DNA from: Syntrophobacterales bacterium
GTDB taxonomy: Bacteria; Desulfobacterota; Syntrophia; Syntrophales; UBA2210
Reading direction: 5' to 3'
Assembly: GCA_018433345.1 (NCBI GenBank)
Contig: JAHDRK010000040.1
Coordinates: forward strand, 1-52,412
Length of the DNA stretch: 52,412 bases
The notes beneath the pieces were generated by a model. That model searched no databases and was not told the origin of the DNA. It worked only from the letters and a program-made list of their open reading frames with translations. Shown here one piece after another: positions 35,529 to 48,681 of this stretch. How positions within the stretch are numbered: the stretch's first letter is position 1; the number at the start of each line of letters is the position of its first letter. The position numbers and the translations under genes were made by a program.

Positions 35529-36587
35529 TCACTCCATAGGGACGCCTGCAGCCTCTTGGCGTGCCGCGTCATAAAGCCTCCGAACAAGATAGTTGGAAAA
35601 AACGGTGCGGGTTCCACTCCTGATGATTCGTTTCACGTCACTCCGCTCTATCTTGACGGGGGCTCCATCCAGGAGCCGATAGCGGTCGCGCCGCACAAGG
35701 GCAAGCGTCTCCACGGCCATCATTAGCGGCCATATGCAAAAGAGACGGCGGCGCGCGTATCTCCTCGGAATGGCCAGGACGTATTCGATCGCCCTGTCGA
35801 GATTAGTCAGCGCCATATCTACGAGAGGCTCCAGCGCGGTCGCTCTGACGTCCCTATTGCACTTCGAATTTTCGGGAAAGGCGTCCTCCTGTCCCGCCCC
35901 GTGGAAAAGGGAGCGCGGAACATAGCACCATCCCCTGTGGAGATCACCCATGTAGTCCTTGGCGATGTTCGTTAATTGCAATCCGAGGCCGAAGGCAACA
36001 CTGCGGGAATGAAGGCACTCATAAGTTTCTCTTGATACTTTGCCGTCTCCTGCATTTCCGAAGAACAATTTGGTGATCATAAGCCCCACCGTTCCGGCCA
36101 CATAATAGCAGTACCGCTCCAACTCGTTCCGGTCCTCGAGCATCACGACACAACCGTCCAAGGCCTTTTCCTGAAACAGGGCCATGCCTCGGGACATCTC
36201 GCGTACGTGTTCAGAAACAATCAACTGCGACCGCAAGGGCAGTTTAGAGAACTCACCCAGCACCCTGGGAGCGTCGAAAAGAAGTTTCCGGTCATGTCCT
36301 GATCTCTCGATCGGGATGGAATCCACAAAGTCTTTGACCTGTTCCGGCCAGTTGGGACGAAGGGGAAAGAGTTTTTCGTAATCGGCAAGGCACTCGATTT
36401 TTGACGCCGCAGACAAGGAAGGTTCATCCTCGATGGTATCGGCAATGCGACACAAGAGGTAGGCCAGGAGTATGCTTCGGTAATCGTCTCCCCGAAGTAC
36501 GCGGATATTGAGGGCGAAGGTCCGTGACACCAAGGCCAGGTGTTCTTCGCAGATCCTGAAATCATTTCCTTCCGCTCCGATCGCCAT
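35529..36587 (-). CDS. Squalene synthase, eukaryote-type
   Basis: Trans-isoprenyl diphosphate synthase condensing two farnesyl diphosphates to (pre)squalene at the membrane. 352 aa from the ATG at 36587. Motifs in order: SRTFALNIRVL, LLCRIADTIEDE (first Asp-rich motif), YCYYVAGTVGLM, and GLGLQLTNIAKDYMGDLHRG (second Asp-rich motif). The combination of CYYVAG with TNIAKDY resembles eukaryotic squalene synthases more than the bacterial HpnC/HpnD pair. I did not recognise a C-terminal membrane anchor. A TTG at 36647 is a less likely start. No cyclase gene is nearby, so the end product (hopanoid, sterol or free squalene) is open. Confidence 0.8.
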   Translation of the reverse strand: MAIGAEGNDFRICEEHLALVSRTFALNIRVLRGDDYRSILLAYLLCRIADTIEDEPSLSAASKIECLADYEKLFPLRPNWPEQVKDFVDSIPIERSGHDRKLLFDAPRVLGEFSKLPLRSQLIVSEHVREMSRGMALFQEKALDGCVVMLEDRNELERYCYYVAGTVGLMITKLFFGNAGDGKVSRETYECLHSRSVAFGLGLQLTNIAKDYMGDLHRGWCYVPRSLFHGAGQEDAFPENSKCNRDVRATALEPLVDMALTNLDRAIEYVLAIPRRYARRRLFCIWPLMMAVETLALVRRDRYRLLDGAPVKIERSDVKRIIRSGTRTVFSNYLVRRLYDAARQEAAGVPME

Positions 36588-36711: not shown

Positions 36712-36737
36712 AAAAAAGGGAGACCCTAAGGCCTCCC
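36712..36737 (-). terminator. Intrinsic terminator upstream of squalene synthase
   Basis: Minus strand arms GGGAGGCC (36730-36737) and GGTCTCCC (36718-36725), an 8-bp stem with one G-U pair and the loop TTAG, followed by six T (36712-36717). It lies ~125 nt before the squalene synthase start with no recognisable gene upstream on that strand. It therefore terminates either a non-coding RNA or a leader. Confidence 0.7.
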
Positions 36738-36922
36738 TTGTATTGTCGGGGTAAAAACCACTATGTCGCACACCGGATTTACCTGAAAAGAAAAAACCCC
36801 GCTTTGAAGATCCGCTTTCCGTCCTGCTCCGCCGTTCGCCCAGTGTCGCCTTCACTGAACGAACTTATAACATTCGTGGTTCAAAGGTTCCAACCAGGTT
36901 CAGGAGATTTTTCCCGGTTTGC
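36712..36922 (-). ncRNA. Candidate sigma-54-dependent structured small RNA
   Basis: The gap 36588-37290 has no supportable gene. A minus-strand transcript beginning near 36922 (below the sigma-54-like element) and ending at the 36712-36737 terminator would be ~211 nt. It contains a 12-bp helix (36834-36864) with arms GTTCGTTCAGTG and CACTGGGCGAAC and a 7-nt loop. Its two G-U pairs would be C-A mismatches on the plus strand, so the helix is continuous only in minus-strand RNA. A wider 7-bp helix, CTTTGAA/TTCAAAG, can enclose it. It could instead be the leader of the squalene synthase operon with an attenuator. Confidence 0.35.
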
Positions 36923-36930
36923 CTTTATGT

Positions 36931-36948
36931 GTTGCACTTTTTATGCCA
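36931..36948 (-). promoter_or_regulatory. Sigma-54 promoter candidate
   Basis: Minus strand TGGCATAAAAAGTGCAAC. The GG (36946-36947) and GC (36934-36935) are exactly 10 bp apart, and I score 10 of 13 informative positions of TGGCACG-N4-TTGCW-N2-A. Enhancer-like half-sites lie about 170-205 bp upstream, and a gene for an NtrC-class regulator is the second gene past them. It points toward the candidate RNA and the squalene synthase operon. Confidence 0.5.
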
Positions 36949-37104
36949 AACGCCCCCGAGATCTAAGTGTCTGTCATTACTCACATTGTAAATACCGCAC
37001 TTTTCAATCTCACTATCGGGATCGGAAAAAATTGTCGCGCAAAATGCCTGACGTACCATACTACTCAATATTTCCGGCATCTTATGAGAAGACAACATCT
37101 ATGT

Positions 37105-37140
37105 CGATTCGACGAAATTGTCGAATCGCATCCCATTCGA
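37105..37140. promoter_or_regulatory. Phased ATTCGA half-site array, possible enhancer
   Basis: Perfect 9-bp inverted arms CGATTCGAC (37105-37113) and GTCGAATCG (37120-37128) with a 6-bp spacer, plus a third half-site. ATTCGA at 37107, TCGAAT at 37121 and ATTCGA at 37135 start exactly 14 bp apart in alternating orientation. It lies between the minus-strand sigma-54 element and the plus-strand kinase promoter, the right place for an activator acting on either. Confidence 0.5.
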
Positions 37141-37290: not shown

Positions 37291-39141
37291 ATGAACGAAC
37301 ACAAACCGAAAATAAAGGAAATGAGTGGTGAAAACCCCTCTTTTCTCCGGGAAGGGAGCCACCCTTCAAAATATATTATACCGGTCACAGTATTTTTGGT
37401 GGTGGCCGTCTTCGTCTCGTTGATTCTGTTTATGGGTCTCATGGATCTCCGAAGGCTCGACAAAACGCTGGTCGAATTTATGGAAAACCGGGGACTCGAC
37501 ATCGTAACCACGATCGAAAACGTGGCCCAGGAGGACCTCGATTTCCTGAGGCGGACACTCTTGGACGATCAATACGATTTCGGATTTGCTCCCATCCCGC
37601 TTTCCGACAAGGAATATCACATCCAGGAACGGCTGATAAACGCCCTAGTGGACGTGGCCAGGGATATCGACGCATACTGGCAGCAGGACGAATTGACGGA
37701 AGAGGACCTGGAACGAATAGCCGCCGAAGAAAAGCTTTCGCTCATCGTCATATTGGACGAGGAGGGACATATCGTATTGCAAAGCAGACAATTCCAGGAA
37801 GAATCCTCTAGGGCTCCCCTTATTTCAGGAAGCGACCAGGATCAACTGGCAAGATGGCTCCTTAAAACACTGGGCCCGCTCATGGACATGGGTTATATCG
37901 CCCTCCGACGGAAGGACGGCAGCGGAACCATCGTTATCGCCCTGGACGCCGGAAAACTAAAATACTGGGGTACGAAAACAGCGGTCAAGAAGGTGGTCGG
38001 TGAAATCGGCTGGGAACAGGAACTACATTACCTTTCTGTCTTCGATCGCGATGGTACCTTACTCGAAACGGTGGGAGACAGCACGCAACACAACATTACG
38101 ACGGCGAACGGCGCGGTCCGGGAGATACTCTCCGGGAAACGCTCGCTTGTCAGCACCAAGTTTGAAGATGAAAGCGGCCATCACCTGTCCATTATCGCTC
38201 CCCTTCACCTCGATGACACGGTGGTAGGATACGTTCACATGGGACTCAAGTGGGATCGGGCAAGGGCGACGCTTTCGCACAACAGAACCCGTATGATTAT
38301 CACCACTCTTATGGTTGTCCTGATCGGAACGATCACCACGATAATGCTTTACAGGAACCAAAGCCGCGAACTTGCCCGCATGGAAAAAATGAAAGAAAGA
38401 CTCCAGCGGGCGGAACAGCTCTCTGCCCTGGGCCAGCTTGCCGCCGGGGTGGCCCACGAAATCCGTAACCCCCTGAATGCCATTAGTATCGCCGCCCAGC
38501 GGCTCCAGCGAGAATTCGCCCCCCGTAATGATGACAATAATGATTTCAGCCACCTTTACAACGTTATGCGCGATGAAATTAGGCGACTGAACGAAATCAT
38601 AGAAGAATTCGTCACCTTTTTCAGGATAAAGCGTATGGAACTTAGACCCCGGCCTCTCGAGAATGTGTTGGAAAAAATCATGGCGGTCATGGCGACGGAG
38701 TGCGGTGAACGAAATATCGTCCTGGAAGGTTTATGGAACGACAAACACCCCACCATCGTCTCCATGGACGCAGACAAACTGACGCAGGCCTTTATAAATA
38801 TCGTAAAAAACGCCATGGAGGCGATCGACGGTTCGAAACCGGGACGAATAACTCTGGCGGTAGAGCGCAGGGGAGACCGACAAGCAGTTGTTACCATCTC
38901 GGATACCGGGTCGGGCCTGACGCCCGATGAAGTAGACCGAATTTTCAATCCCGAATATACTACTAAAGAAAAGGGACTGGGACTTGGGCTGACCCTTGCA
39001 CATGAAATCATCAACGGTCACGGCGGGGAAATCAGGGTGACGAGCAGGAAGGGATTCGGCACCACCTTCGAGATACTCCTGCTCCTCGCCGGGGATAAAG
39101 AGAACGAGAAAACGGAAAGCAGCCATTATGAAGGATCTTAA
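37291..39141 (+). CDS. Membrane sensor histidine kinase (NtrB/ZraS-like)
   Basis: Inner-membrane kinase of 616 aa. Membrane helices at about 29-52 and 336-355 enclose a ~280-residue, largely acidic periplasmic sensor with no clear family. The cytoplasmic part has the H-box GVAHEIRNPLNAI (phosphorylated His), N-box NIVKNAMEAI, G1 SDTGSGL and G2 GLGLGLTLAHEI, of the type that phosphorylates NtrC-class regulators. There is no PAS or obvious HAMP. The start at 37291 is uncertain; an ATG at 37321 is possible. It overlaps the regulator gene by 14 nt. The signal is unknown; envelope stress or a metal would fit ZraS-like systems. Confidence 0.88.
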   Translation: MNEHKPKIKEMSGENPSFLREGSHPSKYIIPVTVFLVVAVFVSLILFMGLMDLRRLDKTLVEFMENRGLDIVTTIENVAQEDLDFLRRTLLDDQYDFGFAPIPLSDKEYHIQERLINALVDVARDIDAYWQQDELTEEDLERIAAEEKLSLIVILDEEGHIVLQSRQFQEESSRAPLISGSDQDQLARWLLKTLGPLMDMGYIALRRKDGSGTIVIALDAGKLKYWGTKTAVKKVVGEIGWEQELHYLSVFDRDGTLLETVGDSTQHNITTANGAVREILSGKRSLVSTKFEDESGHHLSIIAPLHLDDTVVGYVHMGLKWDRARATLSHNRTRMIITTLMVVLIGTITTIMLYRNQSRELARMEKMKERLQRAEQLSALGQLAAGVAHEIRNPLNAISIAAQRLQREFAPRNDDNNDFSHLYNVMRDEIRRLNEIIEEFVTFFRIKRMELRPRPLENVLEKIMAVMATECGERNIVLEGLWNDKHPTIVSMDADKLTQAFINIVKNAMEAIDGSKPGRITLAVERRGDRQAVVTISDTGSGLTPDEVDRIFNPEYTTKEKGLGLGLTLAHEIINGHGGEIRVTSRKGFGTTFEILLLLAGDKENEKTESSHYEGS

Positions 39142-40492
39142 CATTCTCATAACAGAGGACGGCCAATCGCAACGGGAAATGCTGAGGGATTTTCTCGCTG
39201 GAGAGGGACACATGATCCACGAAGCGGGAAACGGTGAAGATGCGGTTCGCACCGTGCTAGATGCGCCTATAGACTTGGTTTTGCTCGATTACAAGATGCC
39301 CGGCATGAACGGCTTGGAAGTTCTTAAAAGAATCAAGGAAATCAACCCTGCCGTGGATATCATAATGATGACCGCTTACGGAACCGTGGAAACGGCTGTC
39401 CAAGCCATGAAAGAGGGTGCCTTGGACTATATCACGAAGCCCATTGACCTGGAGGAGCTTCTTCTCCTTATAGATCGTATCTCGGAAAGACGCACCCTCA
39501 TAAGGGAAAATGAAATCCTCCGTTCAAAACTCTGGAAAAAGGGCATGGAGGGAGGTCAAATAATCTATAGAAGCGCCGTCATGGAAGAGCTCGTGAACAT
39601 GGCGGGGCGAGTGGCCCCCAGCAGGGCCACAGTGCTGATCGAAGGTGAGAGTGGTACCGGCAAGGAACTTTTTGCCAGGCTTATTCACGGACTGAGTCAG
39701 AGGGCCTCCGAACCCATGATTGTGGTCAATTGCGGAGCGTTGCCCGAGACCCTCCTGGAAAGTGAGCTCTTTGGACACGAAAAAGGTTCATTTACGGGCG
39801 CGACGTCTAGAAGAATCGGTCGCTTCGAGGAGGCCGACGGAGGAACCCTGTTTCTCGATGAGATCGGGGAGCTATCCGCACCCGTCCAAGTCAAATTACT
39901 TCGCTTTCTCCAGGAACGGGAATTCCAGCGCCTGGGCGGAAACCAGACCCTGAAGACTGATGTACGCATCATCAGCGCGACCAACCGGAACCTGGAAGAA
40001 CAGATGAAAAAGGGACTTTTCCGTGACGACCTCTATTATCGTCTCAACGTGGTAACGATAAAAATTCCACCGCTGAGGGAGAGGAAGGAGGATATACCGA
40101 AGCTGGTTGAACATTTCATCGAACGCTTCGGGCGGGAAAACGACAAACCCCTGGAGGGCATCAGCAACGAGGCGATGGACATGCTTCTCAAGTACGATTA
40201 TCCCGGCAACGTTCGTGAACTGGAAAACATCATCGAACGCGCCTCGGTTATCACCAGGGAGCCGGTGATCACCGTTCGGGACCTCCCCTTCAGTAACAAA
40301 GGCTTGCCCCGTGCGCCGGAAGCAGGGGAGAGGGGAAGCCTTATGAAGGATTCCGTGGAAACCCTTGAGTGCCAGCTTATCGAACAGGCCCTGGAGGAGA
40401 CGGAGAACAATCAGACAAAGGCGGCCGAAATCTTGGGAATCACGGAGCGGACCCTTCGATATAAGATGAAAAAGTACGGCATGAAGCAATGA
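39128..40492 (+). CDS. Sigma-54-dependent response regulator, NtrC class
   Basis: 454 aa with three domains. Receiver (about 3-120): acidic pocket TEDG and phosphoacceptor DYKMPGMNG. AAA+ domain (about 140-375): Walker A GESGTGKE, Walker B GGTLFLDEIGE, arginine-finger region FRDDLYYRLNV. The C-terminus is a Fis-type helix-turn-helix (NNQTKAAEILGITERTLRYKMKKYG). The sigma-54 contact loop reads GSFTGA, with Ser in place of the usual Ala. It should activate sigma-54 promoters when phosphorylated by the overlapping kinase. A candidate target lies upstream of the pair. Confidence 0.95.
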   Translation: MKDLNILITEDGQSQREMLRDFLAGEGHMIHEAGNGEDAVRTVLDAPIDLVLLDYKMPGMNGLEVLKRIKEINPAVDIIMMTAYGTVETAVQAMKEGALDYITKPIDLEELLLLIDRISERRTLIRENEILRSKLWKKGMEGGQIIYRSAVMEELVNMAGRVAPSRATVLIEGESGTGKELFARLIHGLSQRASEPMIVVNCGALPETLLESELFGHEKGSFTGATSRRIGRFEEADGGTLFLDEIGELSAPVQVKLLRFLQEREFQRLGGNQTLKTDVRIISATNRNLEEQMKKGLFRDDLYYRLNVVTIKIPPLRERKEDIPKLVEHFIERFGRENDKPLEGISNEAMDMLLKYDYPGNVRELENIIERASVITREPVITVRDLPFSNKGLPRAPEAGERGSLMKDSVETLECQLIEQALEETENNQTKAAEILGITERTLRYKMKKYGMKQ

Positions 40493-47289: not shown

Positions 47290-48681
47290 TCATTCCGTGA
47301 TAGACTCTTTTCGTTCCTCGTCAAGCCCATAGTGCTTGATTTTCCTGTGGAGGTTGCTCCGTTCCAGCCCTATGGCTTCCGCTGTTTTTGATATGTTCCA
47401 GTCGTTTTCCGAGAGCTTCTTCGAAATATAGGCCTTTTCAAAGAGTTTCTTCGCCTTTCTGAAGGTATCACCGAAGGCGGCCGACGATGCCGCCGCGGTC
47501 GAGGTTTTGCGGAGCCCAACTCCCCCGGGAAGTGGTGGTATATCGTCGACGGTTATTCGATTGTTCGGCGACATGATCACGATCCGCTCGATGATGTTTT
47601 TCAGCTCTCTGACATTCCCGGGCCAGTCGTGTTTCATGAGCGCCTTCATAGCCTCGTCGTCTATTCCTTCGATTTCTCTGCCCTCCTTCGCGGCGAATTC
47701 GCGCATGAAGTGTTCCGCCAGGAAGGGAATATCCTCTTTCCTCTCCCTGAGCGGTGGGACGTGAAGAGGAATGACGTTGAGCCGGTAGTAGAGGTCCTGC
47801 CGGAAACGCCCTTCCTCCATTTCCTTTTCCAGATCCTTGTTTGTCGCCGCCAGGACCCGGACATCCGTTTCGATGATTTTTGTCCCCCCCACGCGTTGGA
47901 ACTTTTTTTCTTGGAGAATGCGGAGGATCTTGGCCTGGGCCTTGAGGCTCATGTCGGCCACCTCGTCCAAGAACAGCGTACCCTCGTTAGCCATGTCGAA
48001 CTTGCCGCGTTTTTTGGTTGTCGCTCCCGTAAAGGCACCCTTCTCATGGCCGAAAAGCTCGCTTTCAATCAGTTCTTCCGGAATCGCGGCGCAGTTTATT
48101 TCCACGAAGGGTTTGTTCGCCCTGCGACTGTAGCTGTGAATGGAACGCGCCACCAGTTCCTTACCCGTTCCGTTTTCCCCCATGATGAGTATCCACGCAT
48201 TGGTCGGAGCGATAATCTCGATCATTTCCTTGAGCTCCCGTATGGGGTCACTTTCACCCTGCAGTTCGAACTCCCGTCTCATTCGTTCCTTCAAGAGGCG
48301 ATTCTCTTCCTGGAGGCGACTCTGTTCGAGGGCATGGTTCGCTATGAGCACCACCTTTTCCAGTGAAAGGGGCTTTTCTATGAAATCAAAGGCCCCCAGC
48401 TTTGTCGCCCTTACGGCGGATTCGACGGTTCCATGACCGGAGATGATCACCACCGGAATGTTCGGGTACTGCCCTTTGATCCTTTCCAATGTTTCTATTC
48501 CGTCGATGCCGGGCAACCACATATCAAGAAGAACGAGGTCCGGCAGTTCCCGTTCGATTATATCCAGGCAGGCTTCGCCGCTCTCGGCCGTCAGAACCTC
48601 GTACCCTTCGTCCTGCAGGATACCGCTCAGTGACTGTAGAATGCTTGCTTCGTCATCGACGACAAGTACGGTCTTCTTCAT
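47290..48681 (-). CDS. ntrX: NtrX-like sigma-54 response regulator
   Basis: 463 aa. Receiver (about 3-120): VDDEAS and the phosphoacceptor in DMWLPGIDG. AAA+ domain: Walker A GENGTGKE, the canonical sigma-54 loop GAFTGA, Walker B LFLDEVADMS. The C-terminus has a Fis-type helix-turn-helix (NISKTAEAIGLERSNLHRKI) of the NtrX subgroup. The ATG overlaps the kinase stop as ATGA (48678-48681), so kinase and regulator are translated together. NtrYX controls nitrogen and redox responses and envelope genes in various proteobacteria; its targets here are unknown. Confidence 0.92.
   Translation of the reverse strand: MKKTVLVVDDEASILQSLSGILQDEGYEVLTAESGEACLDIIERELPDLVLLDMWLPGIDGIETLERIKGQYPNIPVVIISGHGTVESAVRATKLGAFDFIEKPLSLEKVVLIANHALEQSRLQEENRLLKERMRREFELQGESDPIRELKEMIEIIAPTNAWILIMGENGTGKELVARSIHSYSRRANKPFVEINCAAIPEELIESELFGHEKGAFTGATTKKRGKFDMANEGTLFLDEVADMSLKAQAKILRILQEKKFQRVGGTKIIETDVRVLAATNKDLEKEMEEGRFRQDLYYRLNVIPLHVPPLRERKEDIPFLAEHFMREFAAKEGREIEGIDDEAMKALMKHDWPGNVRELKNIIERIVIMSPNNRITVDDIPPLPGGVGLRKTSTAAASSAAFGDTFRKAKKLFEKAYISKKLSENDWNISKTAEAIGLERSNLHRKIKHYGLDEERKESITE

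Follow-up and report, generated by a model that had tools for sequence, protein, structure and literature searches.

The region from 36712 to 36948 of the window (the whole 52,412-nt stretch of DNA that was analyzed) quite probably encodes one copy of a small RNA family that is spread across the class Syntrophia. The RNA would serve as the principal dedicated output of the neighboring histidine kinase/NtrC-class regulator pair, act by anti-Shine-Dalgarno pairing, and respond to an envelope or metal stress signal. A predicted sigma-54 promoter and a predicted RNA at this locus are strongly supported by conserved sequence elements, whereas binding of the regulator and transcription of the RNA are inferred. 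The first-pass annotation had proposed a sigma-54-dependent structured RNA under the control of the NtrC-class regulator next to it, and this is the best reading, since promoter, enhancer, RNA, and kinase/regulator pair co-occur across most families of the class. The most conserved parts of the unit, a 5′ hairpin with a CUCCUGA loop and an upstream enhancer dyad, were absent from that annotation. The features of the locus are as follows.

35529..36587, minus strand: squalene/phytoene-synthase-family gene, outside the unit; downstream of the terminator, a neighbor only in some families.
36712..36739, minus strand: intrinsic terminator AAGGGAGGCC-UUAG-GGUCUCCCUU followed by U4; read from the sequence, conserved in the genus.
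36712..36924, minus strand: small RNA of ~210 nt; predicted start 11–14 nt after the GC element (near 36922–36924), end at the terminator U-run.
36756..36761, minus strand: GUGGUU, 3′ arm of a possible long-range helix, pairing with 36876–36881.
36834..36864, minus strand: 12-bp hairpin with an invariant GAAGGCGAC apical sequence; covariation in five genus members.
36876..36881, minus strand: AACCAC, 5′ arm of the possible long-range helix, pairing with 36756–36761.
36892..36919, minus strand: 5′ hairpin P1, AACCGGG/CCUGGUU, with an anti-Shine-Dalgarno loop; covariation in 11 family members.
36900..36907, minus strand: UCUCCUGA, loop of P1, putative antisense seed against Shine-Dalgarno sequences; CTCCT invariance.
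36933..36948, minus strand: sigma-54 promoter TGGCATAAAAAGTGCA, GG (36947–36946)-N10-GC (36935–36934); conserved in genus and class.
37023..37040, minus strand: second, half-conserved putative regulator site (CGACAATTTTTTCCG), ~90 nt upstream of the promoter.
37108..37125, minus strand: enhancer dyad TTCGACAATTTCGTCGAA, putative site of the NtrC-class regulator, 177 nt upstream of the promoter.
37291..39141, plus strand: divergent histidine kinase gene (HisKA and HATPase_c; ZraS/AtoS/NtrB-type models below cut-off).
39128..40492, plus strand: NtrC-class response regulator, presumed activator (receiver, Sigma54_activat, Fis-type HTH).

The minus-strand sigma-54-like element described earlier is an exact GG-N10-GC. 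By itself, such an element is weak evidence; its weight comes from conservation in 4/4 genus relatives and at the regulator loci of the class. The dyad and a sigma-54 promoter are found on the predicted strand at 45 of 58 regulator loci, compared to three of 58 on the opposite strand and 0.0 in dinucleotide shuffles. The dyad was allowed ≤4 mismatches and had to be located 120–240 nt (usually 169–197) before the promoter, and a few regulator loci are without motif, promoter, or RNA. The window’s genome encodes RpoN, and its enhancer dyad is the sole close match near any promoter in that genome. The dyad is kept in all genus members, where TTCGACAA..TTGTCGAA is invariant across the alignment, and class-wide at a fixed spacing. 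In the second site, CGACAAT..TTTCCG is invariant in 5/5 genus members, and several other families harbor a second dyad 103–106 nt upstream of the promoter.

A search of 41 relatives at the DNA level finds the element in 4/4 same-genus genomes, in each case between a squalene/phytoene-synthase-family gene and the divergent kinase/NtrC-class regulator pair (one contig, in G002, ends within the kinase gene). The invariant blocks of the genus are the dyad, a half-conserved second site, the -24/-12 element of sigma-54, the loop CUCCUGA, AACCUUUG, GAAGGCGAC, and the terminator. The hairpins of the genus homologs are compensated. The first-pass annotation had suggested a covariance search in related genomes; model R1 yields five further candidate matches in four further genomes of the window’s family. 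Upstream of the kinase orthologs, the family shows the same form, in which a CCUCCU-loop hairpin at the 5′ end is followed by (U)UAAACC.

The proposed terminator hairpin with its T-run is present at 36739–36712, and its stem reaches 10 bp before the U-run if the weaker end pairs are counted. The 12-bp helix is likewise formed as proposed, by 36864–36853 with 36845–36834 and including two G-U pairs, and its covariation in the five genus members is strong (96.7% of cells paired, compensatory changes at 5/12 pairs). Over the whole structure, 96% of cells are paired in the genus with six double-change pairs; this covariation is matched by 0/500 shuffles, and slid controls fall far below it. In P1, whose arms were paired by hand over 11 family sequences, 75/77 cells are paired, five of the seven pairs show double changes, and 0/2000 shuffles are equal. 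CTCCT is invariant in 11/11 family sequences. The long-range AACC.AC/GU.GGUU helix is paired in 47/48 cells over 8 sequences, with 20/2000 shuffles equal, which is only suggestive of an AACCAC/GUGGUU helix in the window RNA. The CTTTGAA/TTCAAAG helix that was thought to enclose the 12-bp hairpin can form in the window (7/7 pairs), but four relatives retain merely 4–5 of the seven pairs, and it was rejected as unsupported. The folding energy of the window RNA is moderately unusual (z = -1.89). Thermodynamic stability alone is therefore a weak proof of the RNA, comparison is needed, and the support rests on the comparison. The stretch had been described as free of genes; it holds no conserved gene, and no reading frame within the RNA is common to the five genus members.

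The proposed mechanism starts in the divergent promoter region, where conservation supports the TTCGACA-N4-TGTCGA dyad as the operator of the regulator. Subsequently, the phosphorylated regulator on the dyad would contact the sigma-54 polymerase at the GG-N10-GC ~180 nt away, and a terminated RNA of ~210 nt would be made. The CUCCUGA in the stable loop would then pair with the Shine-Dalgarno regions of target mRNAs and block their translation without Hfq; other families would use a CUCCUCCUGA stretch that precedes the terminator. The signal that initiates this cascade may, by analogy with ZraSR, be stress on the envelope or from metals. Pairing with ribosome-binding sites is the leading mechanism because the exposed CUCCU(C)CUGA motif, a hairpin loop in the window, is complementary to Shine-Dalgarno sequences, because NfeR1 provides a precedent, and because Hfq (PF17209) is absent from 11/11 genomes including the window’s (controls in E. 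coli and others were positive). A 14-nt seed search of the window’s own genome gave 13 and 13 matches versus 7 and 2 in the control, and none of the near-complementary sites in that genome is located at a convincing start codon. The ribosome-binding site of the kinase itself is not favored as a partner, as its pairing ranked 21st of 37 in the window.

The RNA could instead act mainly through protein binding, as a CsrA/RsmE-type sponge or with another RNA-binding protein, which we consider unlikely. The window RNA contains several GGA motifs, and antisense pairing alone leaves the invariance of GAAGGCGAC in the genus and of CGGGCA in other families unexplained; a protein may bind these apical sequences. 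The feature that is conserved across families, however, is CUCCU and not the GGA motifs.

The RNA belongs to a unit that is conserved far beyond the genus. It consists of the dyad TTCGACA-N4-TGTCGAA, a GG-N10-GC ~170–197 nt downstream, an RNA of 90–230 nt, a terminator, and the orthologous kinase/regulator pair. When the exact composite pattern was searched independently of the regulator, enhancer plus promoter were found in 79/155 class genomes, in none with the reversed control, and in 2/379 genomes of the phylum outside the class. Most families harbor a shorter RNA form of ~90–130 nt that is characterized by a CGGGCA-loop hairpin, a GAAGG/CCUUC hairpin, ACUCCUCCUGA, and a terminator. The shorter form shows covariation, with 0/500 shuffles as good. 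RNAalifold performed poorly on its raw 22-sequence alignment because MAFFT misaligned the hairpins, and worked on an 11-sequence subset with the named structure. The covariance model of this main class form, R2, contains no promoter sequence. It matches in 91/155 class genomes at E ≤ 1e-8 and in none outside the class at this threshold, where the noise floor is given by scattered weak matches (E 9e-8 to 1e-3). An R2 match is located 1–17 nt downstream of 52 of the 68 composite promoters outside the window’s family.

The window’s own RNA is not matched by R2. Both forms have the promoter, regulator, CUCCU motif, and terminator in common but not the overall alignment, and they are either one diverged family or the result of repeated replacements. 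CTCCT is found in most class-wide relatives and recurs in both forms, and the position of CUCCU and the overall fold vary by family. Second copies distant from the regulator (L101, L102, L103, L105, and L110) keep the dyad, promoter, and RNA.

Orthologs of the regulator with 64–82% identity occur in nearly all of the 60 order genomes searched, and the next paralog reaches ≤54%. Outside the class, the enhancer-promoter unit shares a contig with a regulator ortholog of 60% identity in one genome (G439). The kinase scan of public genomes returned only genus members and unrelated kinases. The genes downstream of the RNA vary: rarA (identified by its sequence rather than through a family search) is convergent at 18 loci, the squalene/phytoene-synthase gene is codirectional at six, an NMO-family gene follows at four, and others occur singly. 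As the regulator pair is constant, the RNA belongs with the regulator and not with the downstream gene. An alternative reading, which is even less probable than protein binding, makes the RNA the 5′ leader or attenuator of the squalene/phytoene-synthase gene, with sigma-54 transcription passing or stopping at the terminator. In the window’s genus and a few other genomes, the gene does follow codirectionally, ~125 nt past the terminator. In most families, however, convergent rarA or unrelated genes follow the RNA while the regulator pair stays, most relatives have a strong terminator after the RNA, and no alternative antiterminator pairing is seen. A riboswitch was also rejected, as no metabolic gene is constant downstream.

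In other genomes, the same dyad and promoter drive proteins. The protein in G029 resembles ZraP/Metal_resist (weak match), and the one in G317 matches the ZraP model at 6e-14, below the curated cut-off, and Metal_resist at 4e-19. The window itself contains no ZraP-type chaperone target. It is hardly conceivable that the window RNA is an mRNA for an unrecognized small protein: small proteins that are secreted or periplasmic do stand under this promoter in other genomes, but the frames within the RNA are unshared among the five genus members and its stems vary through compensatory changes. For the regulatory RNA, an envelope-stress role is favored because of the ZraP-like proteins under the same promoter (G029 and G317) and the precedent of E. 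coli ZraR, which makes proteins of the envelope and of transport its probable targets. What stress the pair senses is a guess, as the window’s kinase and regulator remain below the curated cut-offs of ZraS and ZraR (204/479 and 453/760 bits, respectively). A tentative evolutionary scenario, which we regard as possible but less likely than not, is that in Syntrophia a ZraSR-like envelope-stress system exchanged its output, a periplasmic chaperone gene, for an Hfq-free, class-wide envelope-stress sRNA under the same enhancer and sigma-54 promoter, with the anti-Shine-Dalgarno seed moving between the 5′ hairpin loop and the preterminator site.

At locus L137 (G317, outside the class), two minus-strand units ~5.1 kb apart drive ZraP/Metal_resist proteins and are probably a second regulon; ABC-transporter genes and genes resembling those for outer-membrane lipoprotein sorting are located nearby. 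At locus L106 (G098, reverse strand 1959–2500), the unit drives an 89-aa secreted-looking Ala/Lys-rich protein with a weak match to the Asr acid-shock protein (E = 0.0048).

Small RNAs under sigma-54 and an adjacent NtrC-class pair are already known, and the window RNA is a new, widely conserved one without an Rfam entry. Qrr and GlmY are gammaproteobacterial sRNAs that work together with Hfq or RapZ. Each is activated from a sigma-54 promoter by a regulator of the NtrC family (LuxO and GlrR, respectively), and Rfam recognizes no sequence relation between these sRNAs and the window RNA. The earlier statement that no Rfam family is present agrees with the searches, in which the whole window, the element at a permissive E-value, and 20 related loci gave no match above the gathering threshold. 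A weak suhB-clan match covers the 3′ part of the RNA (16.7 bits versus the 41-bit threshold). No paper on a Syntrophus small RNA was found in the literature collection searched.

The Pxr sRNA of Myxococcus xanthus adjoins the PxrK/PxrR (Nla19) kinase/NtrC-like pair and resembles the window RNA in its predicted sigma-54 promoter with upstream enhancer region, its multiple hairpins, and a host reported to be without Hfq (PMC5684412, PMC5568312). It differs in its length of ~108 nt and its location downstream of pxrR, whereas the window RNA is divergent from the kinase, and it is described from Cystobacterineae (PMC5684412, PMC5568312). The printed Pxr fragments (CCCCCC-type loop), through which alone the two were compared, are unlike the window RNA (PMC5684412, PMC5568312).

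The alpha-r14 RNAs of rhizobia (NfeR1 in Sinorhizobium) are Hfq-independent and present the ultraconserved anti-Shine-Dalgarno sequence CCUCCUCCC in loops that stay constant while the stems vary (PMC10746234). The anti-Shine-Dalgarno hairpin loops are common to both, and three relatives of the window RNA (L022, L029, and L030) have two CCUCCU/CUCCUGA hairpins, with CCCUCCUG and CUCCUGAA in the loops, and lack an obvious U-tract terminator. The alpha-r14 RNAs have three hairpins each with a CCUCCUCCC loop, however, compared to one CUCCU hairpin loop in the window RNA. They also belong to another class and have another structure, and their promoter is LsrB-activated and NtrC-repressed and not shown to be sigma-54 dependent (PMC10746234). 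ZraR of E. coli, which has been linked to envelope stress, activates zraP from a sigma-54 promoter (PMC7657598). The arrangement of a kinase and an NtrC-class regulator with a sigma-54 target is the same, and the shared enhancer-promoter precedes ZraP/Metal_resist-like proteins in G317 and, with a weak match, in G029. In the window, by contrast, the regulator-adjacent target is an RNA, and the proteins miss the ZraS/ZraR cut-offs.

This family would provide a bacterial class that comprises syntrophs and other anaerobes with a conserved regulatory RNA whose controlling regulator is known and whose seed can be predicted. One RNA-bearing member is apparently a cultured organism, so the prediction is testable. 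In this member (G052, apparently Syntrophus aciditrophicus), one homolog is located at C1:1925214–1925338 on the plus strand, and a second copy directly follows C1:813855 on the plus strand. The RNA also offers a study case for antisense control without Hfq and for the output of one regulator shifting between protein and RNA.

Several loci vary the arrangement. Two near-identical tandem sRNA units ~960 bp apart are found at L065 (G023), with dyads at 1960 and 2920 on the reverse strand. At L052 (G062, 1988–2228), three identical TTCGACAATTTTGTCGAA dyads with ~111-bp spacing are located upstream of a single sigma-54 promoter. The window additionally encodes a second NtrC-class regulator paralog (44% identity) at 47320–48672 on the minus strand. 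Third and fourth RNA forms occur at L034 and L050 (family f12) and at L035–L039 (family f5), where the same enhancer and promoter precede RNAs that clearly differ in sequence and fold (e.g., GGGCACAGG..AAUGAGGUGCCC).
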